In this document: positions 20,541-37,287 of the stretch, piece by piece
Numbering within the stretch: position 1 is the first letter of the stretch
Layout of the letters: each line of letters opens with the position of its first letter
Origin: a virus
Virus record (IMG/VR): IMGVR_UViG_3300006042_000014
Coordinates: 1-39,878 of that record
DNA length: 39,878 bases
Reading direction: 5' to 3' (one strand)
Translations under genes and position numbers: made by a program
The notes under the pieces: generated by a model
What the model was told of the DNA's origin: nothing
The model's input: only the letters and a program-made list of their open reading frames with translations
Databases searched by the model: none

Positions 20541-20581
20541 CGTCCGTAGCAATAGCCAGCCCCTACCCGCACCGTTTGCCC
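20541..20581 (+). promoter_or_regulatory. CGTCCGTAG element 1 (before portal)
   Basis: CGTCCGTAG at 20541-20549, then AGCCAGCCCCTA, then CGTT nine bases before ATG 20582. The distance from the motif start to ATG is 41 bases. No Shine-Dalgarno sequence precedes the ATG. Proposed late promoter giving a leaderless or near-leaderless portal mRNA. Confidence 0.6.
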
Positions 20582-22531
20582 ATGTCTGGCCGCATCCGCA
20601 ATGTGACCCCGAAGGCGGGATTTGTGTTCGACGGCCGGGACGTTATCCCCGCGCCATCCAATGTCATGCCCATCCGGTCAACGTTCACCGTGGACGGCGC
20701 GCTGGCCAACGTCATGTCTGGCCGGGGCACTTCGGTTGACCGGTCCAGCTATGACACATGGACCTTTCTTCGCAAAAACCCGCAGCAGATCGAGGCTGCC
20801 TATCGTGGCAATTGGCTGTGCCGGAAGATCGTGGACATTCCGTGTCAGGACATGACCCGAGCAGGCCGGGACTGGGACGCCGAAGATGACCAGATTGCGG
20901 CCATCGAGCGCGAAGAGAAGCGCTTGGGCCTGTGGTCGAAGGTCATGCAGGCGATGGTGCTGGGCAGGCTTGGCGGCGGCGCAATCCTCATCGGCGCGCG
21001 CGATCGGCGCCCTGATCTGCCCCTGCCAGCCAATGTCGATACCGGCTTCGTGGAATGGCTCGCGGTCCTTTCGCGGTATCAACTCACGGTCGGCGAAATG
21101 GAAACGGACCCCGCTTCCCCGATGTTTGGCGAGCCGCGCTATTTCCGCCTTGGCGGCAGCGGCAAGCAGGTCGATGTCCACCCTTCGCGCGTGATCGCGT
21201 TCAAGGGCATGCCGGCGCCCGGCCTCTACATGACCTCTTGGGAGGATCAGTATTGGGGTGATAGCATCATCCAGACGGTTGATGATGCGATCAAGCAGGC
21301 TGTCACCGCGACCCAGGGCTTCGCGAACCTGATCGATGAGGCGAAGGTGGACGTGTTCACCATGCCCGGCATGTATGAAACGCTCGCTCAGCCGGGCGGT
21401 GAAGCCAAGTTCATGCAGGCCCTCCAGACCACCGCGCAGGGCAAGAGCATGTGGCGCATGCTGGCGCTCGGCGAAGGTGAGACGTGGGAAACGCGCCAGA
21501 TCAATTGGGCCGGCATGCCCGATGTCATCAAGACCTATCTATCGATCGTGGCAGGTGCCGCAGATATCCCTGCGACCCGCCTTCTCGGCAAGTCTGCCGA
21601 TGGTATGAACGCGACTGGCGCCGGTGATGAGCGCAACTATCTCGCCATGATCGCAGCGAAGCAGACCATGGAACTGCGGCCCATCATGGATAGGCTGGAC
21701 GCGGTAGTACTGCCCTCCGCCGGCGTGGCCGCCGATCTGCCGTGGAAGTTCTCGCCAATCAGCACGCTTAGCGAGACGGAAGAGGCTGACATCGAACTGA
21801 AGGAAGCCCAAGCGCTTGAAAAGATCGTGGGCCTAGCGATGGTCCAAGAAACCGCGATGGCCAAGACCGTCCAGAACCGCCTGGTGGAATCCGGAAGATG
21901 GCCAGGATTGAAGGCGCTTTTGGATGAAGCCGAAAAAGCGGGCGAAGAATTGCCTGATGGCGACGAAACCGAGCTGGGCATTGTGCCGGTCGGATCGGAA
22001 GGAGGTGATCGGACTATCTCGCGTGCAGGCGGGCAGTCTGGAAGTGGCTTGCCCGCCCGCCGTGCTGTGAATGATGCCTGGATGCTGGAAGACTGGGCGC
22101 CCAAGACGCTCTACGTCAGCCGGGCAGTCGAGAACCGTGACGACATCGTGAAGTGGGCGCGCTCGCAGGGCTTCACGGACATCGCGGAAGACCTGCATGT
22201 CACCATCACCTACAGCCGCACGCCGGTTGACTGGATGGCCATGGGCGAAAGCTGGCGCGGCAAACTGGAGATCGAGCCGGGCGGGCCGCGTCTGGTCGAA
22301 GCGCTTGGCCCTGACGGCAAATACAAGGCCCTGCTGTTCACCGCCTACGAGCTGGTGAGCCGCAATGCCGAGATGCGCGAAAAGGGCGCGTCGTTCGACT
22401 GGCCCGAGTATCAGCCCCACATTTCCATTCAGGTCGGCGGCGACATCGATCTGGCCACGGTGAAGCCCTACACCGGTAAGATCGTGCTAGGGCCGGAAAT
22501 CTTTGAGGAAATCCGCAGCGGAGGCGAATAG
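20582..22531 (+). CDS. Portal protein with C-terminal Acb1-like phosphodiesterase domain
   Basis: A 649-residue protein. Residues 1 to about 460 are a DUF1073-type portal: YDTWTFLRKNPQQIEAAYRGNWLCRKIVDIPCQDMTR, GRLGGGAILIGARD, WGDSIIQTVDDAIKQ, and PATRLLGKSADGMNATGAGDERNYLAMI. After a Gly-rich linker (about 480-505) comes a separate domain, TLYVSRAVENRDDIVKWARS, with two HxT/S motifs, His539 in LHVTITYSR and His613 in PHISIQV. That is the 2H-phosphoesterase arrangement of Acb1, which cleaves cyclic oligonucleotides of CBASS defence. This portal family is known to carry such a domain; activity here is untested. The first ATG 20582 is chosen over TTG 20576. Confidence 0.88.
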   Translation: MSGRIRNVTPKAGFVFDGRDVIPAPSNVMPIRSTFTVDGALANVMSGRGTSVDRSSYDTWTFLRKNPQQIEAAYRGNWLCRKIVDIPCQDMTRAGRDWDAEDDQIAAIEREEKRLGLWSKVMQAMVLGRLGGGAILIGARDRRPDLPLPANVDTGFVEWLAVLSRYQLTVGEMETDPASPMFGEPRYFRLGGSGKQVDVHPSRVIAFKGMPAPGLYMTSWEDQYWGDSIIQTVDDAIKQAVTATQGFANLIDEAKVDVFTMPGMYETLAQPGGEAKFMQALQTTAQGKSMWRMLALGEGETWETRQINWAGMPDVIKTYLSIVAGAADIPATRLLGKSADGMNATGAGDERNYLAMIAAKQTMELRPIMDRLDAVVLPSAGVAADLPWKFSPISTLSETEEADIELKEAQALEKIVGLAMVQETAMAKTVQNRLVESGRWPGLKALLDEAEKAGEELPDGDETELGIVPVGSEGGDRTISRAGGQSGSGLPARRAVNDAWMLEDWAPKTLYVSRAVENRDDIVKWARSQGFTDIAEDLHVTITYSRTPVDWMAMGESWRGKLEIEPGGPRLVEALGPDGKYKALLFTAYELVSRNAEMREKGASFDWPEYQPHISIQVGGDIDLATVKPYTGKIVLGPEIFEEIRSGGE

Positions 22532-23379
22532 TGGCCTATTCCCTCCCCCGCATGGCTCGCCAAGCAGGCAAGCGGCGAAACATCGTCCTCAGGCCGATTG
22601 TCCCCGCTGTCTCAATGGCAACGGACCTCGCCGCGATCTACGCGCCCGCCTGGCAGATATGGGCCGACAGCATCGACCGCATCATTGCCGGCTATGATCC
22701 GCAGCCGCTGCCCACGGCCGACACGCTGACCGTCGACACCGTGGATCAGGTGCAGGCCGCCATCAGCAGCGTGGCGCAGGAGTTTCTGACCGTCCTCACC
22801 GCACGGATCGCGCCGGGGCTGCGGCAGTGGGTGGTAAAAGCAGAGAGGACGCACCGCTCGAAATGGTCGGCCGCGATCAAGGCCGGCGTGGGTGTCGATC
22901 TCGACCTGATCCTGTCCGCGCAGCCGGTGGAGGAGGCACTGGGGACGTGGTTGGCGCGCAATGTTGCGCTGGTGACCAATGTCTCCGATGTGACCAAGGG
23001 CAAAATTGCCGATGCTGTCTTCCGCGGATACGAGCAGAGGACGCCTGTCAGGGATGTCGCGCGCCAGATACGCGAAGACGTAGGCGGCAGTCGCGCACGG
23101 GCGGTCAGGATTGCCAGCCATCAAAATTCATCCCTGTCAGCGGCGCTGGACACGGAACGGCAAGCAGAAGCTGGATTGGAATTCTTCAAGTGGCGTCATT
23201 CAGCCAAGCGTTTTCCTAGGCAGGATCACCTCGCCCGCGACGGAAAGATTTATAACCTGCGGACGGGTAAAGAACGCGACGGTTCTGGGCAAGTCGCCGC
23301 AGATGATAGGCCCGGAATGCGTCCCGCATGTGGGTGCCGCTCTCAAGCGTGGATACCGCTCTTAGATACCATAGATTAG
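22531..23379 (+). CDS. SPP1 gp7/Mu F-like head morphogenesis protein
   Basis: A 282-residue minor head protein. The GTG start at 22531 overlaps the portal stop (TAGTG). The N-terminal two thirds are helical. The C-terminal part has the family pattern SHQNSSLSAALDTERQAEAG, LEFFKWRHSA, RQDHLARDGKIYNL and GMRPACGCRSQAWIPLL, a Cys/His domain. It acts with the portal and scaffold in procapsid assembly. A 97-base leader and the HNH gene follow. Confidence 0.86.
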   Translation: MAYSLPRMARQAGKRRNIVLRPIVPAVSMATDLAAIYAPAWQIWADSIDRIIAGYDPQPLPTADTLTVDTVDQVQAAISSVAQEFLTVLTARIAPGLRQWVVKAERTHRSKWSAAIKAGVGVDLDLILSAQPVEEALGTWLARNVALVTNVSDVTKGKIADAVFRGYEQRTPVRDVARQIREDVGGSRARAVRIASHQNSSLSAALDTERQAEAGLEFFKWRHSAKRFPRQDHLARDGKIYNLRTGKERDGSGQVAADDRPGMRPACGCRSQAWIPLLDTID

Positions 23380-23414
23380 CTAGGATTTTCGGCGATTCGT
23401 GCTATGTCTGAAGC

Positions 23415-23448
23415 GGGCCGGAAACACTGCGCTAACAGTGCCCGGCCC
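23415..23448 (+). other. Hairpin upstream of the HNH gene
   Basis: GGGCCGG (23415-23421) pairs with CCGGCCC (23442-23448), with an inner CACTG/CAGTG stem and loop CGCTAA. There is no T-tract. A 9-base direct repeat GATTTTCGG flanks the segment (23384-23392 and 23466-23474). It may regulate the HNH gene or mark the edge of the insertion. Confidence 0.45.
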
Positions 23449-23475
23449 TGACCACAACGAAAGGTGATTTTCGGT

Positions 23476-24267
23476 ATGGCTATGCCCGAATTATGCGCTG
23501 CGCCTGGGTGCGGCAAGCCCGCTCGTAAAAATCGTTTTAACGCCTGTTCCATGCATGAAGCGCGGATGCGGCGCGGCGGATCTTTTGAGCGCCGACAAGA
23601 GAAGATGACGCTTCACCAGATACTCGGCGGAAAGATGCTATTTGGTCTTTGGCAGGTTCTGTCTGAGGGGGAGCCTTATATCCGCGGAAATGGCGAATCC
23701 ATGCGCCGCGCGATGTGCCGTTGCGCTTGCGGCGTCGAGCGTCTTGTGCCGATACATACCCTCAAACAGGGCAACTCTAAGCATTGCGGGTGCAGGCAAC
23801 ACATTTTCAATGAGGCTAATCACCTCCGCCATGGGGACACCCGGCGCAGCCATTATGCCGCGGAATATGGAATTTGGAGTAAGATGATAGGGCGCTGCAC
23901 CAGCCCGAACGATAAGCATTTCCGGCACTACGGCGGGCGCGGCATAAGCGTATGCGACCGTTGGCGGTTAGACTATGTGAATTTCCTTGCGGATATGGGG
24001 CGTCGTCCTTCGCCCAAGCATTCCATTGATCGGATCGACGTTAACGGAAACTACGAGCCGGGCAACTGTAGATGGGCTACCGCGCGCGAGCAGGCTGCGA
24101 ACAAGCAAAACACTCACTGGGTGCAATTCCGAGGCGAGCGCGTCGCCCTCATAGAAGCTTGCCGCAGGGCTGGCGTCGAATGCAGATACAAACTGATCCA
24201 CAAGCGAGTTCACTCAAAGGGCATGACCTTTGATCAGGCGCTGGCGATGGAAGGGATAACCCCCTAA
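23476..24267 (+). CDS. HNH-type homing endonuclease-like protein
   Basis: A 263-residue free-standing endonuclease-like protein. A Cys-rich N terminus (CAAPGCGKPARK; MCRCACGVE; KHCGCRQH) leads to the core GIWSKMIGRCTSPNDKHFRHYGGRGISVCDRW ... FLADMG ... HSIDRIDVNGNYEPGNCRWAT, a motif found in many phage homing-type nucleases. AAAGGTGA stands about eight bases before ATG 23476. Codon use is visibly less G+C-rich than its neighbours, and it separates the gp7-like gene from the protease gene, so it looks like a later insertion. Confidence 0.82.
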   Translation: MAMPELCAAPGCGKPARKNRFNACSMHEARMRRGGSFERRQEKMTLHQILGGKMLFGLWQVLSEGEPYIRGNGESMRRAMCRCACGVERLVPIHTLKQGNSKHCGCRQHIFNEANHLRHGDTRRSHYAAEYGIWSKMIGRCTSPNDKHFRHYGGRGISVCDRWRLDYVNFLADMGRRPSPKHSIDRIDVNGNYEPGNCRWATAREQAANKQNTHWVQFRGERVALIEACRRAGVECRYKLIHKRVHSKGMTFDQALAMEGITP

Positions 24268-24272
24268 CCTCC

Positions 24273-24314
24273 CGTCCGTAGAGCCTAGCCAAGACCATGC
24301 GGCAGACAAGCCCC
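24273..24314 (+). promoter_or_regulatory. CGTCCGTAG element 2 (before protease/scaffold)
   Basis: CGTCCGTAG at 24273-24281, 42 bases before ATG 24315, which is preceded by CCCC and no Shine-Dalgarno sequence. It follows the HNH stop by five bases. This fixed distance supports ATG 24315 over ATG 24297. Confidence 0.6.
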
Positions 24315-25625
24315 ATGGTGCTATTCTCCGACGCCCTGACCCTTGACGCGCCTCGCCCGATGCAGGGCGGCTTTGTTGCCGTCAGGGCAAAGGCTGCCCG
24401 CACCGGCACCTATTCCTATCTCGGCTCCGAGATCGACCCCGAAAACAAGCATGGCTTGCGCGACGCCGGGATGGTCAACGTCCTGCGCGACGATGCCGCC
24501 GTGTTCGATGCCAAGTCGGTGCATAGCTTCATCGGCAAGCCGATCACGAACGATCACCCGCGCGAGGCCGTCAACGCCGGGAATTGGCGCGATCATGCGC
24601 GCGGCGTTGTCATGGGCGCGATGCGGGACGGTGAATATCTCGCGTTCGACCTGCTGCTGACCGACAAGGCGACGATCGACGCTGTGGACGCCGGCAAGCG
24701 CGAACTGTCCAACGGCTATGCGGCTGAGCTTCAGTTCGGCGATTTCACCGGCCCCGGCGGCGTCAAATGCGTGGCCAAGCAGGTCGCCATCACTGGCAAT
24801 CACGTCGCAATCGTGGACCGTGGCAGGGCCGGTCCGTCGTGCCGCATCGGCGATGCCGCGATCTGCGACGCGTTGCCTATCGCGTTGCAGGATGGAGCGA
24901 AAGAGGCCGCCGCATGGCTCAAGAAGGCCATAGCGCTCCACGAGAAACACATGAACGGCTCTGCCCCGACTACCGGCAAAGAGGGCGAGAAGAGTCAGAT
25001 GCTCATGATGGAGCAGATGAAGAACGCGCTGGCCGAACTTGGGGGCGGCGACGCCAAGTCCGGCGAGGCCGGCATGAAGATGGACGTTTACCCCTTCCAC
25101 ATCCTTGAACAGGAGAAGCAAGTGAAGAAGATCGTGCTCGACGGTCTGCAGGTCGACCTATCGGACGCGGAAGCCGTCAGCGCCGCGATCTCGAAGCTGC
25201 AGGACAAGGCTGCGCAGGCTGAAACCGCTCTGACCGATGCAAAGGGCCAGATTTCCACCCTACAGGGCGAGAAGGCTGTGCTGGAAAAGAAGCTGGCCGA
25301 TGCGAACGCCGAGTTGACCCCAGCCAAGCTGGATCAGCGCGTCGCGGATCGGGCAACGCTGGTGACCAAGGCAAAGGCGGTCAAGGCCGACATCGTGACC
25401 GATGGCAAGACTGATGCGGAAATCCGCCGTGCGGTCGTGGCCTTCACCCTCGGTGATACCGAAGCCTCCGCGCTGGATGATGTCGGCATCGCAGGCGCCT
25501 TCGCCATGGCTGCGAAGGATGCCAAGCCCGCCGACCCGCTGCGCACGATCATCACCGATGGCGTTCGCGGCCCGGTCAATGACGCCGCCACCGTCTCCAC
25601 CATCCGCGCCGCGCGCTACGCATAA
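24315..25625 (+). CDS. DUF2213 capsid maturation protease with scaffold region
   Basis: A 436-residue protein. The N-terminal part (LTLDAPRPMQGGFVAVRAKAARTGTYSYLG, KPITNDHPREAV, ELSNGYAAELQFGDFTG, ITGNHVAIVDRGRAGPSC) is the DUF2213 protease-like domain. The C-terminal half is a coiled-coil scaffold (KLQDKAAQAETALTDAKGQ ... EKKLADANAEL). Fused protease-scaffold genes precede capsid genes in many siphoviruses. ATG 24315 is preferred by homologue-like start and by the distance to element 2. Confidence 0.86.
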   Translation: MVLFSDALTLDAPRPMQGGFVAVRAKAARTGTYSYLGSEIDPENKHGLRDAGMVNVLRDDAAVFDAKSVHSFIGKPITNDHPREAVNAGNWRDHARGVVMGAMRDGEYLAFDLLLTDKATIDAVDAGKRELSNGYAAELQFGDFTGPGGVKCVAKQVAITGNHVAIVDRGRAGPSCRIGDAAICDALPIALQDGAKEAAAWLKKAIALHEKHMNGSAPTTGKEGEKSQMLMMEQMKNALAELGGGDAKSGEAGMKMDVYPFHILEQEKQVKKIVLDGLQVDLSDAEAVSAAISKLQDKAAQAETALTDAKGQISTLQGEKAVLEKKLADANAELTPAKLDQRVADRATLVTKAKAVKADIVTDGKTDAEIRRAVVAFTLGDTEASALDDVGIAGAFAMAAKDAKPADPLRTIITDGVRGPVNDAATVSTIRAARYA

Positions 25626-25639
25626 GGGAGGGCTGAACC

Positions 25640-26107
25640 ATGTCCGTTCTTCAGAGCAGCTACACCGAGAACCCCGCCAAGGGCTATCCCGGCATGATCG
25701 CCAATGGCGAGACCTCCAACCGCATCAGCCGCACCTGTGAAACCGCTGCGGGCATTGCATTCGGCGCGCCGGTCTATCGCGGGTCGGGCGATCACGGCGC
25801 AGTCGGCACGGTCGGCACGCTGGCCACCTTCCTGGGCTTCGCCGTCGCCACTTCGGCCTTGGGCGCGCTGCCCGGCGCCGATGCTGACGAATATCAGCAG
25901 TATGACAACATGACGATCATCACCAGCGGTGCGGTCTATGTCACTGTCACCGGCGCCGTGACCGATGGCGCTGCGCTGACGGTCGGCACTGGTGCTGGTG
26001 CGGCGGATGGTATCGGCGCCACGGCCGCCGACGCAACGCACATCGCGACCGGGTGGATCGCAGACGAAACCGTCACGAACGGCCTGTGCCGTATCGTGAA
26101 GCGCTAA
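25640..26107 (+). CDS. Head decoration/cement protein
   Basis: A 155-residue Gly/Ala/Thr-rich beta protein (YPGMIANGETSNRISRTCET; VYRGSGDHGAVG; TIITSGAVYVTVTGAVTDGA) with GGGAGGGC before ATG 25640. Composition and location between the scaffold and capsid genes match phage structural cement or decoration proteins that stabilise the shell. Confidence 0.75.
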   Translation: MSVLQSSYTENPAKGYPGMIANGETSNRISRTCETAAGIAFGAPVYRGSGDHGAVGTVGTLATFLGFAVATSALGALPGADADEYQQYDNMTIITSGAVYVTVTGAVTDGAALTVGTGAGAADGIGATAADATHIATGWIADETVTNGLCRIVKR

Positions 26108-26117
26108 GGGGGCAATC

Positions 26118-27212
26118 ATGAACGCCATTTCCCATTTCTTCGACGCCGCTGCCGGTCGCATCACCGATCCGATCATGTTCATGGCCGCTGACGCCGCGGT
26201 CCAGCGGCAGGTCATCAGCCTGTGGGCCGCCGACAATGCGCGCCATGCGGCTTCGTTCGCCGACAAGATCGACGCGTTCCTGTCGGACGCGCAGGTCGGC
26301 TATGCCTTCCTAACCCCGCAGCTTCACCGCATCGAATCCGAAGTCTACATGACGAAGTATCCTAGCTTCGACATCACTCGGTTCATGCCGGTCGATAGCT
26401 CGGGCGACATGTGGGATGTCGGCACGGTCGTCTATTCGATGGATCAGGTCGGCCAGGCCGAGTTCATGGCCGGCGGGGCGTTCAACATGCCCTACGCGTC
26501 GACCAAGATGACGCAGAACACCCGCAACTTCCATCTGGCCGCGATCGGCTATGAATGGAACACGCAGGAAATGCAGCGCGCCGCCAAGCTCGGCCGTTCG
26601 CTGTCGTCGGACAAGGCGCTGGCTGCCGGCCTCGCCGCCGATCGCTTCATCTATGGCATCGCCATGACAGGCCTCACCCCAAAGGGCGAAAACGAAAAGG
26701 GCTGGACCGGCTTCGTCAATGACGCGAACGTCGCATCGGCGCAGGTCGCGAACGATGGCACCAGTTCGTCGCGGCTTTGGTCGGCCAAGACCGCCGATCA
26801 GATCCTGCGCGACATCAACGAAGCGCTGACCGCAGTTGAAACCGGCTCGGGCGAAACGATGGTGGCTGACACCCTGGTCCTGCCGACCAGCAGCTATAAT
26901 TACATCGCCACCACCCGCGTCGGTGACAGCGGCTCGACCATCCTGTCCTTCCTGATGGCAAACAACGCGGCCGGTGAAAGCCTGACCATCCTCAAGAGCC
27001 GCGCGCTCGAAACGGCGGGGACCAGCAGCAGCAAGCGCCTCGTCGCCTATGCCCGCAATTCGCAGGTGCTGAAGTTCCACCTGCCCGGCCCGCACCAGTT
27101 CCTGCCCGCCTTCCAGAAGGCGAGCATGGTTTACGAAGTCGGCGGAATCATGAATGTCGGTGGCCTGGAGGTTCGCCTCCCAGCCGGCATGATCTACCGC
27201 GACAGCTTCTAA
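26118..27212 (+). CDS. Major capsid protein (DUF2184 type)
   Basis: A 364-residue protein matching DUF2184 capsid proteins: QLHRIESEVYMTKYPSFDI, PVDSSGDMWDVGTVVYSMD, MPYASTKMTQNTRNFHLAAIGYEWNTQEMQRA, and a C-terminal PAFQKASMVYEVGGIMNVGGLEVRLPAGM. HK97-fold shell subunit. GGGGGC lies before ATG 26118. Ordinary for the family in length and order. Confidence 0.9.
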   Translation: MNAISHFFDAAAGRITDPIMFMAADAAVQRQVISLWAADNARHAASFADKIDAFLSDAQVGYAFLTPQLHRIESEVYMTKYPSFDITRFMPVDSSGDMWDVGTVVYSMDQVGQAEFMAGGAFNMPYASTKMTQNTRNFHLAAIGYEWNTQEMQRAAKLGRSLSSDKALAAGLAADRFIYGIAMTGLTPKGENEKGWTGFVNDANVASAQVANDGTSSSRLWSAKTADQILRDINEALTAVETGSGETMVADTLVLPTSSYNYIATTRVGDSGSTILSFLMANNAAGESLTILKSRALETAGTSSSKRLVAYARNSQVLKFHLPGPHQFLPAFQKASMVYEVGGIMNVGGLEVRLPAGMIYRDSF

Positions 27213-27223
27213 GGGGCGCGAAC

Positions 27224-27403
27224 ATGTCCAAGGTGAAAGTGACCAACATCAGCACCGGCCCGCGCGGCGCCTATCTGGGTGGCGCGCTGGTCATGGCCCA
27301 GCCGGGCGAAACGATCGAGGTGGATGATTTCGCCGAAGAGTGGTTCGCCAGGGCACCGGCCAAGGATGCGAAGGAAACCAAGGCCGAAGGCGACAAGGCC
27401 TGA
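27224..27403 (+). CDS. Small structural protein, 59 aa
   Basis: A 59-residue protein (MSKVKVTNISTGPRGAYLGG, then GETIEVDDFAEEWFARAP) directly behind the capsid gene. Short proteins of this type, with a beta-rich N terminus and acidic-basic tail, are common between capsid and connector genes. The exact role is unknown. Confidence 0.75.
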   Translation: MSKVKVTNISTGPRGAYLGGALVMAQPGETIEVDDFAEEWFARAPAKDAKETKAEGDKA

Positions 27404-27427
27404 CGTTTCAACACCGGGGGCAAACGG

Positions 27428-27460
27428 GGCCGCTGCTCACACCGGGCGGCGGCCATTTTC
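27428..27460 (+). terminator. Possible intrinsic terminator after capsid module
   Basis: GGCCGCTGC (27428-27436) pairs with GCGGCGGCC (27446-27454), including one G-T, around a 9-base loop, followed by ATTTTC. The T-run is short, so it may only attenuate. Confidence 0.4.
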
Positions 27461-27474
27461 GTAAGGACTGACCC

Positions 27475-27933
27475 ATGGCCTACACCCCGCCGACGAAGGC
27501 GACGTTCATTGCGATCTTCCCGCCGTTCGCCGCGGTGACGGACGAGGCTTATGCGTTCTGGTCGGCGCGCGCCGGGCGGATCGTGGACCCGATGCAGGCC
27601 TGCCTTGGCGAGGATGCCGATCTGGCCGCCATGCTCATCACGGCGCATTATCTCACCCTGCAGGGCATCGGCACCGGCGCAGAGGCGGAAATGGCCGCTC
27701 AGGGCGCCAGCGGGTTCAAGCGGATCAAGTCGGGCACAATCGAGCTAGAGCGCGGCGACGCGGCGTCAAGCGGCGCGGACATGGGCGAGTATGGCGCGAC
27801 TAGCTATGGCCAGCAGGTCTACCCCATGCTCAAGGCCTGTTTGGCCGGCCCGCGCGTAACCGGCACCGGCCCCGTCATCGGCGGGTGCGGCTTCAACGGA
27901 TTCGCCGGCCCGCTGCCTTACGGGAGGTTTTGA
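27475..27933 (+). CDS. DUF4054 head-tail connector protein
   Basis: A 152-residue protein with the DUF4054 pattern: FPPFAAVTDEAYAFWSARAGRIV and ADLAAMLITAHYLTLQG, followed by a Gly-rich C-terminal half. AAGGA stands seven bases before ATG 27475. Adaptor between head and tail. Confidence 0.85.
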   Translation: MAYTPPTKATFIAIFPPFAAVTDEAYAFWSARAGRIVDPMQACLGEDADLAAMLITAHYLTLQGIGTGAEAEMAAQGASGFKRIKSGTIELERGDAASSGADMGEYGATSYGQQVYPMLKACLAGPRVTGTGPVIGGCGFNGFAGPLPYGRF

Positions 27934-28292
27934 TGGGGCTTCTCGATGGCGGCATCGCCAGCATCTTCGGCGCGGCGCTGGCCGGGCTGTATCTGCCGGC
28001 CACCCTGCATGTGCCAGGCACGCGCACCGATGATGAAGAGGGCAATATCTCCTATGGCCCCGAAACCGATATCCCGTGCCGCGCGCAGATGGATGCCGCG
28101 ACCTATGCCATGCGCCAAAGCGAGGACTATTCGGAAGGCGATGTGCGGATCATCATCCTGACCGCCGAGCTTGGCGCTGAGGTGACGACGGACTGCCAGA
28201 TCACCGTCAGCGGCAAGCGCTGGATGGTCGGTAGCGCCGATCTGGATGCGGCTTCGAGCCATTGGGTTTGCCGGGGGCGGGCGGCAGGCTGA
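27933..28292 (+). CDS. Neck/head completion protein, 119 aa
   Basis: A 119-residue protein from ATG 27933 (TGATG overlap). The order of a short helical N terminus, LPATLHVPGTRTDDEEG and beta strands DVRIIILTAEL and QITVSGKRWMVGSADLD is typical of a phage head-completion protein. Confidence 0.72.
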   Translation: MGLLDGGIASIFGAALAGLYLPATLHVPGTRTDDEEGNISYGPETDIPCRAQMDAATYAMRQSEDYSEGDVRIIILTAELGAEVTTDCQITVSGKRWMVGSADLDAASSHWVCRGRAAG

Positions 28293-29522: not shown

Positions 29523-29564
29523 CGTCCGTAGAGCGCCAGCCCCCTCATCCATAGCCTGCCCGCA
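29523..29564 (+). promoter_or_regulatory. CGTCCGTAG element 3 (before tail tube)
   Basis: CGTCCGTAG at 29523-29531. The base 41 positions on is an A at 29564, in a context like the other copies (ATAGC ... TGCCC). The ATG of the tail tube gene is 22 bases further, with its own GGAG. This is consistent with a transcription start fixed by the motif. Confidence 0.55.
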
Positions 29565-29585
29565 AATCCTCGCTGGAGTTGCGGA

Positions 29586-30041
29586 ATGGCCTATACCGAC
29601 AAGCTGAAATCGACGCGCGTCGCGATCATGATGGGTGACGGCGCGACGCCGACCGAAGTCTTCTCGCCCATGTGCGGCATCACCACCAAGGGCTTCCAGC
29701 AAACCCGTGCAACGAACGACACGGTGGATTGGGACTGCGCCGATCCCGACGCCACGCCCATCACGGTGCGCGATGCCGGTGCGACGGACTGGACCATCAG
29801 CGGCTCGGGCCTGCTCCATCGCCCCCTGCTTGCCGATGTTCAGGAAGCATTCGACAGCGGTAACCCGACGAACTTCCGCTTCATGTTCGATGAGCCGACC
29901 GGCAGCGAAGTGATCGACGGCTATTACCAGGGTCCGGGCTTCATCACCGATCTGAACATCACCGGCAACAACGGCGAATATGTGAACATCAGCATCACGA
30001 TCAGCGCGGCCGGGCCGAAGACTTTCGTCGCCAACCCCTAA
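29586..30041 (+). CDS. Major tail tube protein
   Basis: A 151-residue Phage_TTP-type protein: a Lys-rich opening, SPMCGITTKGFQQTRATNDTVDWD, DWTISGSGLLHRPLLADVQEAF, and the C-terminal EYVNISITISAAG beta strand. It forms the tube. The stop is followed by a strong terminator at 30070. Confidence 0.85.
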   Translation: MAYTDKLKSTRVAIMMGDGATPTEVFSPMCGITTKGFQQTRATNDTVDWDCADPDATPITVRDAGATDWTISGSGLLHRPLLADVQEAFDSGNPTNFRFMFDEPTGSEVIDGYYQGPGFITDLNITGNNGEYVNISITISAAGPKTFVANP

Positions 30042-30069
30042 CCCTCTCCATCTGCCAGCGAACCTTGAG

Positions 30070-30100
30070 GGGCGGTCGAAAGGCCGCCCTTATTCTATTT
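30070..30100 (+). terminator. Strong Rho-independent terminator after tail tube
   Basis: GGGCGGTC (30070-30077), GAAA loop, and GGCCGCCC (30082-30089) form an 8-bp stem followed by TTATTCTATTT. It ends rightward transcription after the tail tube gene. The stop codon of the opposing gene lies in its T-tract. Confidence 0.85.
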
Positions 30101-30614
30101 CACTCAGCAGTGGGAGCCATGATTGCCAGCGGCAGCCGCACTGGTCTGGATGCTCGCATTCGGATGAAGGTAATGCAGGTGCATCTGCAACCGCAACGAC
30201 TTGGCTATCCATCCTCCTTGAATAGCTGCAGTGTCCTGCCGCCATGCCGCCAAAGCGAAATTTGAATTGCGTGATTCCTGCTTCGCTGGCCCTGCGCATG
30301 TCAGCAAGGCAATTCAGGACACAATTGCACGGCTTTATCACTTCAAACCAGGTATCCTTGGGAGATCCTCTTCCCCAAGCCTCGGATAGGGCAATGAACT
30401 CCGGTTCCCTCCAGACATCCCTCCCATTTCGTCTGTGGTTCAGAATGATGAAGTCAATCACTTCGCCAGTGGCATCATGAATGCCACTTTCCTCCAAGCG
30501 CCGCCGAACGGCCTTGGTATCTGAAGGGGCGCTTGCCCCAGTCCCACGGATTTTGGACGACGGCGAATCGCTGCGTTGAGCATCTCCGAAGACCGTTCTA
30601 AAAAATCGCAACAT
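30090..30614 (-). CDS. Leftward cassette protein with gp7-like C terminus, 174 aa
   Basis: An antiparallel gene within the tail module. From ATG 30614 the product starts MLRFFRTVFGDAQRSDS, has a disordered segment, a helical middle (AVRRRLEESGIHDATGEVIDF, then FEVIKPCNCVLNCLADMRR), and a Cys/His-rich end: EAGITQFKFRF, HCSYSRRM, SECEHPDQCGCRWQSWLPLL. The end resembles the C-terminal domain of the gp7-like protein at 22531-23379. It starts two bases after the upstream gene's stop. A lysogeny-expressed accessory gene is likely; function unknown. Confidence 0.72.
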   Translation of the reverse strand: MLRFFRTVFGDAQRSDSPSSKIRGTGASAPSDTKAVRRRLEESGIHDATGEVIDFIILNHRRNGRDVWREPEFIALSEAWGRGSPKDTWFEVIKPCNCVLNCLADMRRASEAGITQFKFRFGGMAAGHCSYSRRMDSQVVAVADAPALPSSECEHPDQCGCRWQSWLPLLSEIE

Positions 30615-30615
30615 G

Positions 30616-30801
30616 TTAGAGTCCGCATGATTTGACGATGCCGGCTCCGATCGCGATGACAATCGCCAATCCAACAGCCCCACGGATACGCGAAAGCTTG
30701 GTCGCCGAGGTGATCTCATCATTCGTGAATTCGGTCCGGCAATAGGGGCACACCCGCGCCTGGGCATCTATTTGCTTCATGCATTGCGGGCACTGCTTCA
30801 C
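30616..30801 (-). CDS. Zinc-ribbon membrane protein, 61 aa
   Basis: GTG 30801 with GGAGG seven bases upstream gives a 61-residue protein: CPQCMKQIDAQARVCPYC (two CxxC pairs, zinc ribbon), a polar linker, and one C-terminal hydrophobic segment (AVGLAIVIAIGAGIV). Zinc ribbon plus single membrane anchor is frequent in small accessory membrane proteins. It is co-transcribed leftward with the downstream gene. The much longer open frame upstream is antisense to the tail gene and not coding. Confidence 0.72.
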   Translation of the reverse strand: MKQCPQCMKQIDAQARVCPYCRTEFTNDEITSATKLSRIRGAVGLAIVIAIGAGIVKSCGL

Positions 30802-30819
30802 GATCACGCCTCCCCTTGC

Positions 30820-30861
30820 CGTCCGTAGCACCGCGCCATGCCTCGCACATAGCGTTGCCCC
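30820..30861 (+). promoter_or_regulatory. CGTCCGTAG element 4 (before tail chaperone)
   Basis: CGTCCGTAG at 30820-30828, 42 bases before ATG 30862, with CGTT nine bases before the ATG and no Shine-Dalgarno sequence. It lies behind the terminator at 30070-30100 and between divergent genes, so it is the only candidate rightward start for the tail operon. Confidence 0.65.
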
Positions 30862-31296
30862 ATGCAAACCGAGATCGCCCTGCCCTTCGCCGATGGCGAA
30901 TATCTGTTCCGGTTGCCCATCAAGCGCATCATCGAAATCGAGGAAAAGGCCGGGCCGATCGACCTTGTGAAGCATCGGCTGATGCACGGCGGCTGGTCGA
31001 TCCATGATGTTGTCGAGACGCTGCGGCAGGGGTTGATTGGCGGCGCCAAAGGTGAAGTGAACGGCAAGGCGATCGATGTGACTGCCCTGCGCGCGAACAG
31101 CCTGATAGAAAACTATGTCGATGGGCATGCCCTGGCGGAGCATCACCTGACCGCCAAGGCCATTATTGCCGCGCTCTATGTCGGATATGCGCCGGCGCAG
31201 GAGGCTAAAAAAAAAGCCCCGTTGAAGCGGCCGAGCCATCGAAAATCGACTGGGGCCTCGTCCTCCACAACTGCCGAACCCTCGGGCTTGGCCTGA
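30862..31296 (+). CDS. Tail assembly chaperone, GTA gp10-like (short form)
   Basis: A 144-residue protein: MQTEIALPFADGEYLFRLPI, IEIEEKAGPIDLVKHRLM, DVVETLRQGLIGG, and ALYVGYAPAQEAKKKAP. Its first 115 residues match GTA-gp10-type phage proteins located before the tape measure. It contains an A9 run at 31207-31215 where a -1 shift would produce the longer form (see next entry), as for lambda G and GT. Confidence 0.83.
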   Translation: MQTEIALPFADGEYLFRLPIKRIIEIEEKAGPIDLVKHRLMHGGWSIHDVVETLRQGLIGGAKGEVNGKAIDVTALRANSLIENYVDGHALAEHHLTAKAIIAALYVGYAPAQEAKKKAPLKRPSHRKSTGASSSTTAEPSGLA

Positions 31297-31451
31297 GCGA
31301 TGCGGAGGCCATTACCATGCCGGAATATGCCGCGCTAATCCATCACCATGAACTGGCCAATGAGGACGGCGAGGAAGCGCCTCCGTCCGCTGATGACGTG
31401 AGCAGCATGTTCCTGCGCATGGAGCGCGCCGGCATCGGGAAGATCCACTGA
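31216..31451 (+). CDS. Tail chaperone extension reached by -1 frameshift (T-like)
   Basis: In the -1 frame after A9 the sequence encodes SPVEAAEPSKIDWGLVLHNC and then a helical domain (RTLGLGLSDAEAITMPEYAAL), ending at TGA 31449-31451, which overlaps the tape-measure ATG. The conserved-looking part begins before the first ATG of that frame (31317), so it requires frameshifting from 30862. The fusion would be about 196 residues. The zero-frame heptamer A-AAA-AAA is a standard slippery site. Confidence 0.75.
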
Positions 31452-33994
31452 TGTCTGGGATCACCGCCGATCGCGTCGTTGTCGAGCTTGAGGCCCGGCT
31501 TGATCGCTACGAGGCCAATGTCGCGCGCGCGGAAGCGAAGTTCGACAAGGCCATGTCGGGCATCCAGAAAAGCGCGGGCGTTACCGAAGCATTCGTCAGC
31601 CGGGCGGCGGGCATCATGTCGTCAGCCCTTGCTGGCGTCTCGGTCATTGCACTGACCCGGCAATTCCTGACGCTGGCTGACGAAGCGAAGAAGCTCGACG
31701 CAACGTTGAAGCTCGCCACGCAGGGGTTCGGGTCGTTCGGTCAGGCGCAGAAGGACGTGAACCGGATCGCCAATGACACGCGGTCGGGCCTATCCGAAAC
31801 CGCCTCGCTCTACGCCAACTTTGTGCGCGGGGCGAGGGAACTCGGCGGCACGCAGGCGGAAGCAGCGCGGGCCACCGAGACGTTTTCCAAGACGCTCAAG
31901 ATCAGCGGCGCCGATGCCAATCAGGCCGCATCCGCAACCCTGCAGTTCGGTCAGGCGCTCGCCGCTGGGGCGTTGCGTGGTGACGAACTGAACAGCATCC
32001 TTGAGGCATCCCCTCGCCTTGCACGCCTGCTCGCCGAGAGCATGGGGCAGCCGATCGGTCAGATCAAGCAGCTGGGCGAAGAGGGCAAGTTGACCTCTGA
32101 CAAGCTGCTGGCGGCACTGACCGATCAGAAGTTCACTGCTGGCATCGACGCTGAGTTCAATCAATTGCCAGTGACCTTTGGCGATGCGATGACGCGCATT
32201 TCCAATGCCGCACTCACGACATTTTCCGCTTTCGATCAGGGTGGCCAGTTCTCATCCATGTTGGCCAGCTTCTTCGGCGAAAGCGCAGATGGCTTCGCTC
32301 AGATGGAAGAGTCAGCATTCGATGCTGGCGCCGAAATACGAGCCACATTCGCAGGCCTGGCAGACGTGTTCCAGCCCCTTATCGACGGCGCGTTTGCGGC
32401 ATTCGACCAGATCGAGGGCCGTGCGAACTACGTGCGGGATAGTATCGCGAACATTCTCAGGTTGGTCGATAATGTCGACAATACCCTGATCGGCATCGAC
32501 AACTTCGGCCGCCGGTTCGACAATCGCGTCAAGTCCACGATCAACGAGGCAGCGCGCCGAGCCGGCAATACTGGTGGCGAATTTTCGATGACGCCGCTCG
32601 CGAAGGAAGCGGATCGCGCCGGTCAGTTTCTCAAGGCTTTCAACCAGTCGATGGCTACATCGCAGGGCGAAAGGGCTGAAGATCGTTTTCGCAGAATGGT
32701 TGGGGGGACCGATGTTCTTGGCAATCCATTGCCTGGAACACCAGCAGCAGGCCGAGGTAAGCCAGCAGCCACACCCGCATCTTCCGGCAGCAAGAAGTCC
32801 CGCACGCCGCGCTCGCCACTAAACCCAGAAGCGTTCGCGCGCGAAGAAGCGCAGCTCAATAGTGAGATTCTTCGCCTAAAGACCGTCGAACTGACCAATT
32901 CGGAAGACCGCGCCAAGGTCGAACTGCAGCGCATCGAGGCCAATAAAGCCGCCGCCATCGCTGACGTTCAAGCCGACAAGCGCTACACGGACGCGCAGAA
33001 GGCGAAGATTGTAGCGCTGACTGAAACCGTCGCTGCTCTAGAGGCGGGCAAGGTCATCTACGAGCGCGATGTGCAGACGGCGAAGGAAGCCGTCGATATC
33101 AGGGTCAACGACCTGCGCAATCAGCAGGATATTCTGCGCGCGCAGGGTGACCTGGCGCAAACGCGCGAACAGCGGCGCGATATTGAGCTTCGCCTGCTAG
33201 ATTTGGCCTACCAACAGGAGCGCGCTGAACTCGACGCGGTGATCGCCAGCAAAGACGCAAGCGACGCCCAGAAGAAGATTGCGCAGGCGCGGCTAGATGC
33301 CCTTGGCCAGATACAGCAGGCTGAAACTGATGGTGTCAATCAGCAGTATGAAGGCCCCCTAGCCCGCTACCGCCGCAACCTGAATAGCACCAGCACACAG
33401 GATCAGGTCGAAGAACTGATCACGCAGGAGCTGGACTATGTGCGTGACGGCATCCGGGACAGCATCACCAAGCGCCTCGGGGTGAAAGACCCTTTCCTTG
33501 CTGGCCTGATCGATATCTTCATTAACAAGAACATCATCGAGCCGTTCCTGAACTCCATGCGTCGCACGGGGGAATCAGGCGGCACGTTCGGCAATATCCT
33601 CACCTCAATCAGCACCTTCTTCCAAGGGTCAGCGGGCGGCGGCGAAACCGGCACCGGCGTAGGCTTCGCATCCGGCGGCTCGGGCGTCCTTGGCGGGCGC
33701 GGCGGCACCGACCGAAACACCTTGTCGCTGAACGGGCGCCCGATCGCCAACGTCACGCGCGGGGAGACGCTGAGCGTGGGTAGTAAGGCGATCCGGGCGG
33801 GCGGCGGCAGTCAGCCAACCGTCTACGCGCCTCAGTTCAATCTTCCGAACGCCGTGGTGACCACCGAGCTTTATGCTGAGATGGCCAGCATTTCCCGCGA
33901 TAGTTCGGCGCGCGCGGCTGGCGCTGCCTATGCGCAAAGCCAGCAATCTATGCCCGGCACCCTCAACAAGTTCACGCAGTTGAAGGGCGGCTGA
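31451..33994 (+). CDS. Tape measure protein
   Basis: An 847-residue protein: a coiled N terminus (VVVELEARLDRYEANVARAEAKFDKAM), a tape_meas_nterm-type region (LDATLKLATQGFGSFGQAQKDV, SETASLYANFVRGARELGG, SGADANQAASATLQFGQALAAGALRGDEL), a long helical central part (GKVIYERDVQTAKEAVDIR ... RDIELRLLDLAYQQERAEL), and a Gly-rich C terminus. It sets tail length. Length matches a siphovirus tail of moderate size. Confidence 0.93.
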   Translation: MSGITADRVVVELEARLDRYEANVARAEAKFDKAMSGIQKSAGVTEAFVSRAAGIMSSALAGVSVIALTRQFLTLADEAKKLDATLKLATQGFGSFGQAQKDVNRIANDTRSGLSETASLYANFVRGARELGGTQAEAARATETFSKTLKISGADANQAASATLQFGQALAAGALRGDELNSILEASPRLARLLAESMGQPIGQIKQLGEEGKLTSDKLLAALTDQKFTAGIDAEFNQLPVTFGDAMTRISNAALTTFSAFDQGGQFSSMLASFFGESADGFAQMEESAFDAGAEIRATFAGLADVFQPLIDGAFAAFDQIEGRANYVRDSIANILRLVDNVDNTLIGIDNFGRRFDNRVKSTINEAARRAGNTGGEFSMTPLAKEADRAGQFLKAFNQSMATSQGERAEDRFRRMVGGTDVLGNPLPGTPAAGRGKPAATPASSGSKKSRTPRSPLNPEAFAREEAQLNSEILRLKTVELTNSEDRAKVELQRIEANKAAAIADVQADKRYTDAQKAKIVALTETVAALEAGKVIYERDVQTAKEAVDIRVNDLRNQQDILRAQGDLAQTREQRRDIELRLLDLAYQQERAELDAVIASKDASDAQKKIAQARLDALGQIQQAETDGVNQQYEGPLARYRRNLNSTSTQDQVEELITQELDYVRDGIRDSITKRLGVKDPFLAGLIDIFINKNIIEPFLNSMRRTGESGGTFGNILTSISTFFQGSAGGGETGTGVGFASGGSGVLGGRGGTDRNTLSLNGRPIANVTRGETLSVGSKAIRAGGGSQPTVYAPQFNLPNAVVTTELYAEMASISRDSSARAAGAAYAQSQQSMPGTLNKFTQLKGG

Positions 33995-34539
33995 TGAACG
34001 AGTCCTTCGGCATCCGCATAGCCTCCGATCCCCCGGCCCGGCTCTGGGGCGGCTTCGGCGACCTCGAAATCCCGGCCGACATCGTGGAGAGCGAGCCGGC
34101 GATCTACCTCGGCGGCGGCGAACTGCTCAACGCGACCGACTTCGAAATTCCGATCAACGGCCAGGCCGAGCGCATCGATATCCGCCTGTCCGGTGTCAGC
34201 GCAGAAGTCCTCGCCATCGCGATCGGAGAAGCGGCATCGGTCAAGGGGGCCAAGGTCCATTTCGTCCGCTTTTATTTCGATGACGAACTGCAGCTTGAAG
34301 ATGTCGAATATGACAACGTGTTCATTGCCGACAAGCTGACCTTCAGCAGCGAGGAAACCGATGAAGGCCGGTCGCGGGTGTTGACCCTCTCGATCGCCAC
34401 CGAGGACACGGATCGCAATCGCTCGCCGCAGGCATATTGGACCGACGCGGACCAGCGGCGCAAGTCGCCTACCGATGCGATCTTCAGCCATGTGGCCCAG
34501 ATTTATCAGGGCGTGCTGCGCCGGTTCGGGCCGCGATGA
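33994..34539 (+). CDS. Distal tail protein, 181 aa
   Basis: TGATG overlap with the tape measure. A 181-residue beta-rich protein (FGDLEIPADIVESEPAIYLGG; INGQAERIDIRLSGVSAEVL; FVRFYFDDELQLEDVEYDN). Location right behind the tape measure gene indicates distal tail or baseplate hub. Not identified to family. Confidence 0.7.
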   Translation: MNESFGIRIASDPPARLWGGFGDLEIPADIVESEPAIYLGGGELLNATDFEIPINGQAERIDIRLSGVSAEVLAIAIGEAASVKGAKVHFVRFYFDDELQLEDVEYDNVFIADKLTFSSEETDEGRSRVLTLSIATEDTDRNRSPQAYWTDADQRRKSPTDAIFSHVAQIYQGVLRRFGPR

Positions 34540-34928
34540 TGGAGCTTGGCGAATATCTCCGCACCCGGCGGCCGGCATGGGACTGGCAGACGCATGACTG
34601 TTCCCGCTGGCTCGACCGGTGGCTGGTCCTTCGTGGCCATGCCAGCGCCATGGAAGCGACCGGCATTGCCTATGACAGCGAGCGTTCGGCTGCGCGCGTC
34701 ATTGTGCGCGGCGGCGGTCTGCTGATGCTCTGGCAGCGCGGCATGGAGGCGATCGGGCTGGCCGTGGTCGATGAGCCGCAGATGGGGGACGCTGCGATCC
34801 TCAACGCGCCTACCGACGACGGCCACAACCGCACGACCGGCATCTGGACCGGGCAGCGCTGGGCCAGCGTCCATCGTCACGGCCTTATCTGCGCGCCGGG
34901 CGATCCTTTGATGATCTGGAGGGTCTGA
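34536..34928 (+). CDS. DUF6950-like tail hydrolase-type protein
   Basis: ATGA overlap. A 130-residue protein with WDWQTHDCSRWLDRWLV (the Asp-Cys-Ser stretch at a helix start, as in papain-like NlpC/P60 relatives), EPQMGDAAILN, and HRHGLI. This order, Cys then His, matches DUF6950-type tail proteins. It may cut the murein crosslink during DNA entry. Activity is inferred. Confidence 0.7.
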   Translation: MMELGEYLRTRRPAWDWQTHDCSRWLDRWLVLRGHASAMEATGIAYDSERSAARVIVRGGGLLMLWQRGMEAIGLAVVDEPQMGDAAILNAPTDDGHNRTTGIWTGQRWASVHRHGLICAPGDPLMIWRV

Positions 34929-37240
34929 TGGGCGGTGTTGCAAGGGCGATCGTCTCGCCGCTCAGCATCATTGATAAGGGTCTGGGCCGTCTCTCCCTCC
35001 AGATCGTGGCAGTTGCTGGCAATTTCATCCCTGGAGGACAGCCGTTCGCCGCAGCAGCAGCGCTGGCCCTTGCCGTCCTCTATAGGCCGAAGGGGCCAAA
35101 GCCTGAGCAGCAGGAGCGGTCTATCAAGACGGCAGTTCCGCCTCGCGTGTCGGCCTATGGCCGTGTCCGGTTGTTCGGCGCCTATATCCTCTATGTCACG
35201 AACGATGACGGCTATGCGGTCGATGTCTGGGCTTTCCATGACGGCCAGCTTGACTTCATTGAGCGAATCTATCTCGGCGACAAGCAGGTCAAGCTGAACG
35301 GCGGCGGCTTCGTCATCAAGCAGAACGATGGCGAGTTTGGCGACGGCGACACCATCAAGATCGGCACGCGGCTCGGCCTGCCGACCGAAACCGCCTTTGC
35401 AGAGGTCATCGCGCGTCTGCCCGGCATCTGGACCACAAACCACCGCGGCGATGGCGTGGCGACCGGCTGCATGATCTCCAAGTCGGTGAAGGCCAAAAAC
35501 TATAACGAGGTCTATCCGACCGGCGGGCCGGATGCGAATGCCATGTCGATCGTCGCGCGTGCCCAGTTGGTCTTCGATTGGCGCGACCCGACGCAGGACA
35601 TCAATGATCCGACGACATGGAAATGGTCAGACAACGCGGCCCTTGCCATCGCTCACTATTACCTCGTCCGCAACAACAAGGATTGGGACACGCATTTCGC
35701 GCCCACCCTCGCCTACTGGACCGCCTTCGCCGACGACTGCGATGCGCCCATGGAGGTCTATCACGGCGCTGGCGTGTTCGTGGATGATGCGGATTCCGGC
35801 GACACCAGCTTTGAACTGACCAGTGTTGAAGGGCTGGCGCCGGGCAAGACCGTCACCCTGGCGGCTTATGGCATCGACAAGGTGGTGGGTAGCCTGGCGG
35901 GCAACACCGTCACGCTGACGACATCGCTAGGCGACGATTACAAGGCCGGCACGGTCCTTCGCTGGGTCGGTGGCGGGACGGAGCCGCGCTATCGCGTCGC
36001 CCTCGCACACAAGCACACCGATGCGCACAAGGTAACGCTGGGTAACCTGCTGGCGGCCTGCGATGGCATGGTGACGACGCGCGCTGACGGCGCGCTGGTC
36101 CCGTGGTCTGGTCGCTATGTCGAGCCTGATCCTGATGACATGATTGGCCCCTGCGAGATCGTCACTTGGTCGATGGATGACGGGATCGTTGACGAGGATC
36201 AGGCCAATGTCGTCGCGCTGACCTATCTGTCTGCCGATCACGATTTCACGACCGTGCCGACCAGCGACTGGCGCGACGAGGACAGCATTGATGAGGTGGG
36301 CGAGAAGCCGACTTCGTTGGAGAACCCGGTGCCAAGCCATGCGCAGGCTGCCCGTCTGGCAAAGCGCCTGCTCGACAAGACCATGGCTCCCAAGCGTGGC
36401 ACGATTGCGACCAATCCCAAGGGGCGGAAGATCAGGGGCAAGCGCTTCATTCCGATCCATATCGAGGAAGCTGGGACCGTCTTCTATTCCGGCCCGGCGG
36501 AAATCGTGCGCATTCGGCGGACGCAGACCGGCGTTCAATTCGATTGGGTGCGCGCCAACCCGAACGTGGACGCCTGGAACGCCGCGACCGAGGAAGGTGA
36601 GCCAGCTCCGGTCGGCGCGCGGCCGGCGGTTGTGCCCCTGCCTACCCCCGTAATCACGGATGCCGAAGCCGAACTGGGCGAAGGCGGCGCCGATGCGCGC
36701 GTGCGGATCACCGTCGACGGCTTCGATCGGGACGACGTGATATGGTATGCCCGCTGGCGCATCACCACCGACACGACGTGGAACGAGCAGGAATATACCG
36801 ACATCGATCCCGGCCCGGCGGCTGTCCTGCTCTCCAGTCTGGTGCCAACGGATGTCAGCATCGATGTTGCCGTGTCCTATGCGGTAGGCGATGGCCGGCG
36901 TTCGGAATGGTCCGCCATCGAATCCGTCAGCACTTCGACATCGGCCCTTGCGCCGGCGCCGCCGTCATCGGTTTCTGGCACTGGAGGATCCGGTCAGGCG
37001 ACGATCCAATGGACAAATGCCGCATCGGCGAACCTGTCCTATAGCCGCGTCTATCGCAACAGCACTAACACCATTGTCGGCGCGTCGTTGGCAAGCGGCG
37101 ATTTGCCGTCCGCACCAGGCGCCACACAAAGCTATGTCGATACGATAGCTGCTGGCACATATTATTATTTCGTGCGGGGATACAGTGCATCGGGCGCGCA
37201 ATCTGGAGCAGTGGGGACTGGCGCTGTGACGGTGACATAA
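34928..37240 (+). CDS. Tail tip/host specificity protein with FN3-like C terminus
   Basis: A 770-residue protein. Residues 1-50 include a hydrophobic segment, then PKGPKPEQQERSIKTAVPPR and VSAYGRVRLFGAYILY. The middle part is a tip domain with GIWTTNHRGDGVATGCMI. The C-terminal 230 residues have fibronectin-III-like beta repeats (EYTDIDPGPAAVLLSSL; TIQWTNAASANLSYSRVYRN). Large J-like proteins at this location mediate host contact. The stop TAA is followed by element 5. Confidence 0.8.
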   Translation: MGGVARAIVSPLSIIDKGLGRLSLQIVAVAGNFIPGGQPFAAAAALALAVLYRPKGPKPEQQERSIKTAVPPRVSAYGRVRLFGAYILYVTNDDGYAVDVWAFHDGQLDFIERIYLGDKQVKLNGGGFVIKQNDGEFGDGDTIKIGTRLGLPTETAFAEVIARLPGIWTTNHRGDGVATGCMISKSVKAKNYNEVYPTGGPDANAMSIVARAQLVFDWRDPTQDINDPTTWKWSDNAALAIAHYYLVRNNKDWDTHFAPTLAYWTAFADDCDAPMEVYHGAGVFVDDADSGDTSFELTSVEGLAPGKTVTLAAYGIDKVVGSLAGNTVTLTTSLGDDYKAGTVLRWVGGGTEPRYRVALAHKHTDAHKVTLGNLLAACDGMVTTRADGALVPWSGRYVEPDPDDMIGPCEIVTWSMDDGIVDEDQANVVALTYLSADHDFTTVPTSDWRDEDSIDEVGEKPTSLENPVPSHAQAARLAKRLLDKTMAPKRGTIATNPKGRKIRGKRFIPIHIEEAGTVFYSGPAEIVRIRRTQTGVQFDWVRANPNVDAWNAATEEGEPAPVGARPAVVPLPTPVITDAEAELGEGGADARVRITVDGFDRDDVIWYARWRITTDTTWNEQEYTDIDPGPAAVLLSSLVPTDVSIDVAVSYAVGDGRRSEWSAIESVSTSTSALAPAPPSSVSGTGGSGQATIQWTNAASANLSYSRVYRNSTNTIVGASLASGDLPSAPGATQSYVDTIAAGTYYYFVRGYSASGAQSGAVGTGAVTVT

Positions 37241-37246
37241 CCGTCC

Positions 37247-37287
37247 CGTCCGTAGCTTGAGCCAGCCCCTATAACCATCGTTCCGCC
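37247..37287 (+). promoter_or_regulatory. CGTCCGTAG element 5
   Basis: CGTCCGTAG at 37247-37255, followed by AGCCAGCCCCTATAA, with CGTT nine bases before ATG 37288 (41 bases from the motif start). No Shine-Dalgarno sequence. Closely matches element 1 over 12 further bases. Confidence 0.6.

Follow-up and report, generated by a model that had tools for sequence, protein, structure and literature searches.

The late promoters of phages P2 and P4 are multiple, lack a −35 box and are served by one small phage activator (Ogr/Delta); Ogr is a zinc-finger protein that binds a dyad near −55. RinA and ArpU are small late activators of Gram-positive phages and are encoded directly 5′ of the terminase genes, with RinA acting mainly on one promoter, before terS. 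In phage Mu the site for the activator C adjoins the −35 region, and the Mu late mRNAs are not known to be leaderless. Protein C activates the Mu late promoters lys, I, P and mom (PMC4461284). The Caulobacter GTA is a phage-like alphaproteobacterial cluster in which an activator supports RpoD where the −35 is degenerate. The GafY site lies at about −123 to −113 and is bound together with IHF; GafZ is an antiterminator whose site falls between −35 and −10 (PMC11150451). Late transcription in temperate phages of sphingomonads appears to be undescribed: our literature search found no description of it, and a text search for the nine-base sequence considered here gave no relevant title among those listed.

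We analyzed a stretch of 39,878 nucleotides from an IMG/VR virus record (the window), which resembles an integrated prophage as judged by gene order. A response-regulator gene, tRNA-Gly and a leftward integrase lie at its left end and are followed by an S24-type repressor, after which terminase, head and tail genes run rightward in that order. The nine-base element CGTCCGTAG recurs in front of late genes. We consider it likely that these elements mark late promoters with leaderless starts that are switched on by a phage activator, for which the product of gene B is the best candidate. The relevant features are as follows.

17944-18477 (+): gene A, 177 aa, accessory candidate; 4-base overlap (ATGA) with gene B
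18474-18713 (+): gene B, 79 aa, small predicted three-helix protein, last gene 5′ of the terminase genes; candidate late activator
20541-20549 (+): element copy 1, between terminase large subunit and portal, CTAG just before; same place in relatives
20570-20575 (+): putative −10 hexamer CACCGT at motif+29; predicted mRNA 5′ end at the A of the portal ATG (20582)
20582-22531 (+): portal protein gene (phrog_146, E=6e-112), predicted leaderless; ATG at motif+41
24273-24281 (+): element copy 2, 5′ of the head maturation protease
24303-24308 (+): weak putative −10 of copy 2, CAGACA, at motif+30; no YANNNT there
24315-25625 (+): head maturation protease gene (phrog_530, E=1e-69), predicted leaderless; ATG at motif+42
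29523-29531 (+): element copy 3, leadered site, between tail terminator and major tail protein
29552-29557 (+): putative −10 hexamer TAGCCT at motif+29; predicted 5′ end at about A 29564, leader of about 22 nt with GGAG
29586-30041 (+): major tail protein gene (phrog_1407, E=1e-17), leadered, Shine-Dalgarno present
30068-30091 (+): terminator-like hairpin, 10-bp stem then ATTCTATTTC, parting head/tail-tube genes from the tail operon
30820-30828 (+): element copy 4, sole plus-strand copy between terminator 30068-30091 and the tail operon
30850-30855 (+): putative −10 hexamer TAGCGT at motif+30
30862-31296 (+): first tail-operon gene (phrog_8985, E=3.5e-21, tail tube/tail protein family), predicted leaderless; ATG at motif+42
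37247-37255 (+): element copy 5, 3′ of the J-like tail fibre gene and ahead of the tail gene that follows
37276-37281 (+): putative −10 hexamer CATCGT at motif+29
37288-37962 (+): tail protein gene (phrog_12948, E=6e-45), predicted leaderless; ATG at motif+41

As in Mu, a single temperate phage would have several late promoters served by one phage-encoded activator (here a candidate) and host polymerase, and an element at −41 to −33 of the predicted start would fit the geometry of Mu C; unlike in Mu, the element is a 9-mer, short and asymmetric, whose spelling is specific to the genome. The likeness to P2/P4 lies in multiple putative late promoters without a −35 box and one small candidate activator. 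However, B contains a single cysteine and matches no Pfam family, unlike Ogr/Delta, and the element at −41 to −33 has no dyad. Gene B adjoins the terminase genes, as do the genes for RinA and ArpU (B ends at 18713 and the terminase small subunit starts at 18710), but none of 19 B homologues matched a Pfam or PHROG regulator profile, and the element stands before four to six modules. The Caulobacter GTA likewise offers alphaproteobacterial phage genes with activator-assisted promoters (here predicted), though an element at −41 to −33 is placed unlike the GafY site at about −123 to −113, and GafZ is an antiterminator.

A few other features of the map deserve mention. The leftward gene at 30090-30767 (−), behind the late-region terminator, starts with a CxxC zinc-ribbon-like segment and looks like inserted cargo (a moron gene). 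A strong terminator-like 11-bp hairpin lies amid the head genes at 27428-27454 (+), with no late element directly after it, and a 36-nt tandem duplication, in frame and 94% identical, is found at 14817-14888 (+). No phage RNA polymerase gene was present among the genes scanned, a set that covers the early genes in part.

Exact copies of CGTCCGTAG begin at 20541, 24273, 29523, 30820 and 37247, all on the plus strand, with no further copy on either strand of the window. An earlier note on this DNA had expected fewer than one copy by chance; in shuffled sequences we found a mean of 0.11 and a maximum of 1, which rules out a chance origin. CGTCCGTAG is a genuine cis-element. The distances from motif start to ATG that had been described were reproduced: 41 for portal, 42 for the protease (24315), 42 for the gene at 30862 and 41 for that at 37288. 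The protease start at 24315 is conserved in relatives; the list of reading frames had placed it at 24297, which we rejected because this position is GTG or missing in several relatives. The copy at 29523 was rightly singled out as an exception, with its ATG (29586) 63 nt away and preceded by GGAG and with an A at about +41. Two copies, at 20541 and 29523, start at the base that directly follows the upstream stop codon. The pattern YANNNT lies at +29 or +30 in four of the five copies (the exception is 24273), and a consensus scan for a TTGACA-like −35 hexamer 16-18 nt 5′ of the −10 gave no match at the five sites. The terminator said to precede the tail operon is present at 30068-30091, and no copy other than 30820 lies between this terminator and the tail genes. 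The product of 30862, by contrast, had been called a tail chaperone, whereas the family it matches, phrog_8985, is one of tail tube/tail proteins.

Relatives were gathered by portal searches of viral contigs and of bacterial genomes, which retrieved Sphingobium, Sphingomonas and related prophages. Sphingobium scionense DSM 19371, Sphingomonas sp. Root720 and Sphingobium jiangsuense DSM 26189 are carriers that can be cultured. Close relatives without the motif at the corresponding boundaries had been named as evidence that would speak against the promoter idea; instead, relatives with 54-80% identical portals keep the exact 9-mer at these boundaries with the 41/42 spacing, and the flanking DNA has diverged. 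Complete records hold 4-8 copies, and the late strand bears almost all of them. Beyond what had been described, the 9-mer is one of several spellings and the element extends upstream (CTNN), with CT also preferred at −4/−3. A host regulon was considered and rejected: host chromosomes show no enrichment of the extended element, and in the 5.6-Mb genome of Sphingomonas Root720 all five copies of CTNNCGTCCGTAG lie at 98-120 kb of one contig, a 22-kb stretch around the prophage portal locus, a confinement that itself argues against such a regulon.

We collapsed the sites of all spellings, drawn from partly redundant relatives, to 114 sites that are non-redundant by a simple identity cut (flanks <72% alike). 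An ATG lies 40-45 nt from the motif start in 83 of the 114, and in 67 of these at 41 (22 sites) or 42 (45 sites). The sigma-70-like −10 pattern YANNNT occurs at motif+29 in 50 sites and at motif+30 in 10, a fixed distance from element to −10 in 60/114, as an activator-assisted sigma-70 promoter would have. Other offsets hold 0-5 sites each, save +40 to +42, where the ATG itself makes the pattern (binomial p~1e-65 for +29/30 versus offsets 10-28). Shine-Dalgarno-like tetramers precede only 8 of the 83 ATG-spaced starts compared with 167 of 406 long ATG reading frames without the element, a control picked mechanically (Fisher p=6e-9). At the major-tail-protein sites the hexamer keeps its position and the ATG is found at 62-64 behind a GGAG-type sequence. 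About a quarter of the 114 sites have no ATG at 40-45, and some of these sit in coding sequence and are probably chance matches (for example, L007 7998). The pairing of element and hexamer is independent of the ATG, which a promoter predicts and a translational signal does not. Since the hexamer is fixed in leaderless and leadered sites alike, we prefer a transcription start to the translational enhancer, antitermination site or recombination linker that the earlier note had also put forward. Its main proposal, a late-promoter family with leaderless mRNAs, gains support from the spacing, the −10-like hexamer and the Shine-Dalgarno depletion; judged from these sequence patterns, the element very probably marks such a promoter family, and leaderless starts are predicted for the portal, protease, first tail-operon and 37288 genes.

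The spelling of the element is specific to the genome. We found CGTCCGTAG, CGGCGGTAA, CGACGGTAA (in L143 and L012) and CGTCGGTAA (in L138), plus CGGCGGGAA in an isolated phage, and farther sphingomonad relatives have TGACGGCGGTAAC at equivalent places. Agreement was examined in all phages at two sites, portal and protease, and the spellings matched in 29/29; the classes were assigned from the motif itself, and the agreement of independent sites within one genome is not circular. The portal sites of L059 and L063 show a one-base variant of their own class. On the protease gene tree the spelling is distributed as at random (10 changes, shuffled mean 10.7), with a single clade rejected at p=5e-36; for the capsid gene tree the corresponding value is p=1e-7. 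These trees indicate that the protease gene is shuffled among phages and that protease and capsid genes have been exchanged. Because these genes move and the spelling in front of them is the recipient's, the comparison gives strong evidence that a phage-encoded, trans-acting factor with genome-specific specificity would read the element. The Sphingobium scionense genome has two B-bearing prophage regions, L057 and L135, with unlike spellings (CGTCCGTAG in one; CGACGGTAA before B in the other), and one CGTCCGTAG lies near the second region as well (L149). Two spellings in one bacterial genome argue against a host reader. In L014, a portal relative, the corresponding position is taken by an element quite unlike the others, CTGAGGGTTATAAACC, at 27-37 and 3726-3736, 42-43 nt 5′ of the portal and protease ATGs. 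L146, which has a distant B homologue and no otherwise recognized element, carries TTGGCGCTAGT three times 5′ of starts (3530, 8625 and 15710), a possible further spelling.

An RNA-level translational enhancer or ribosome-standby signal about 41 nt 5′ of the start codon would account for the fixed ATG distance at most sites and for the missing Shine-Dalgarno sequences. We nevertheless regard it as very improbable: leadered sites have their ATG at 62-64 and yet keep the −10-like hexamer at +29/30, and a ribosomal signal would not change its spelling genome-wide. Little credence can likewise be given to a nut- or Q-like loading site for antitermination. Such a site might be sought before late modules, where the element stands, and upstream of a tail operon behind a terminator, but one loading site per transcript suffices for an antiterminator, and the element recurs in front of four to six modules with constant spacing to start codons and to the −10 hexamer. 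Least probable of all seems a recombination linker kept through module exchange. The element does mark the borders of modules, and phages do trade their protease and capsid genes; a linker, however, should bring the donor's spelling, yet the exchanged protease genes carry the recipient's (29/29), and it would fix neither the −10 hexamer nor the ATG distance.

If the elements are late promoters, a reader has to be sought, and gene B is our candidate. Its family consists of uncharacterized proteins of 60-90 residues (79 aa in the window) encoded directly upstream of terminase. We compared the proteins of the window, L058 and L066 with 19 element-bearing and 7 element-free loci; B was present in 19/19 and 0/7, respectively, and was the sole family scoring 19/0. 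Virion neck/connector proteins nearly equal it (17/0, absent from short loci only), and therefore co-occurrence by itself does not single out B. Profile searches of viral contigs with B retrieved mostly element-bearing phages. Among 399 Sphingomonadaceae genomes we found 18 B loci, 12 with the element (9/15 among loci not previously collected); at the remaining 6/18, mostly the weakest B matches and L146 among them, no recognizable element was seen. B was not found in 384 other alphaproteobacterial genomes. In the isolate Synechococcus phage Ssp-JY40, found via B, an unsupervised scan gave CGGCGGGAA, with 4/4 exact copies 39-44 nt 5′ of an ATG (for GGCGGGAA, 5/5 plus-strand copies are so placed); element-free controls gave nothing as strong. 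No YANNNT was found near +29 of the Ssp-JY40 copies. The element also lies 43 nt (L061) and 41 nt (L135) before B's own reading frame, a placement that suggests positive feedback. Given its position upstream of terminase, the element-bearing phages that B searches find, the Ssp-JY40 spelling and the elements before B, we favor B as the probable reader and activator.

Two AlphaFold2 models of B, of moderate confidence (pLDDT 70 and 78), show three helices, and B could be a helix-turn-helix protein. Foldseek of these models against the PDB found no structural relative and no DNA-binding structure; the best viral structure match is a 55-aa protein, 54% identical. Pfam and PHROG scans of 19 B homologues and a PDB-sequence scan yielded no known domain and nothing useful. 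The B proteins of G002 and L058 carry a further domain fused to the C-terminus (SWLITATGTGDFFFGA...). L152 (PP438430.1) and OM868076.1, Synechococcus-infecting by record, carry B and related portal proteins; as B is otherwise found only in sphingomonad-type hosts, these phages may in truth infect a heterotroph present in the culture.

It is possible, though rather doubtful, that the same promoters are read by something other than B, whether the ParB-like gene A, another phage protein, or a host sigma factor or activator. B has no known domain, and spelling follows the portal tree at least as cleanly as the B tree, which needs 5 changes. Several B columns associate with spelling (for example, Y/F versus H near the C-terminus) by statistics that ignore phylogeny, and a single B residue as specificity determinant is only a lead. 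Gene A shares B's operon and its likeness to ParB-type DNA-binding proteins lies in their C-terminal part; a longer ParB-like protein stands in its place in L065 (6757-7689), with a WNR C-terminal motif common to both. Gene A was rejected as reader since it is missing from element-bearing G002, L058 and L066. Two facts stand against a host factor: spellings differ within phages of one bacterial family, and host chromosomes almost entirely lack the extended element.

With B as the favored reader, we infer transcription start and activation along the following course. Induction would lead to expression of the A-B-terminase operon. CGTCCGTAG would serve as an upstream element at about −41 to −33 of the predicted start, the place of the −35 box, and would work together with a weak sigma-70-type −10 (YANNNT, about −12 to −7) fixed at motif+29/30. 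The missing −35 boxes and the phage-specific upstream element make a phage-encoded activator most likely; this activator, B being the best candidate, would bind at −41 to −33, beside sigma region 4 or instead of it, and recruit host polymerase. RNA polymerase would start at about motif+41, which at most sites is the A of the ATG, giving a leaderless mRNA; at the major-tail-protein site the start would fall about 22 nt 5′ of an ATG with its own Shine-Dalgarno sequence. Packaging, head, tail-tube and tail modules would thus be switched on together after induction, with the element at 30820 allowing transcription of the tail operon beyond the terminator at 30068-30091 and the leftward gene.

On balance, though with some reserve, we take B to represent a new family of tiny activators, apparently of sphingomonad phages only, that would use a one-sided element of about 13 bp at −45 to −33 to produce a leaderless mRNA for each virion module. 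Its specificity would have changed several times, with all sites in the genome re-tuned each time (CGTCCGTAG, CGGCGGTAA, CGACGGTAA, CGTCGGTAA, CGGCGGGAA). If true, this would provide a promoter map for the virion genes of dozens of prophages together with a named candidate activator, and a natural set of matched protein and DNA variants in which a regulator and all its sites change specificity together. It would also mean that the virion genes of these phages are translated largely from leaderless mRNAs.
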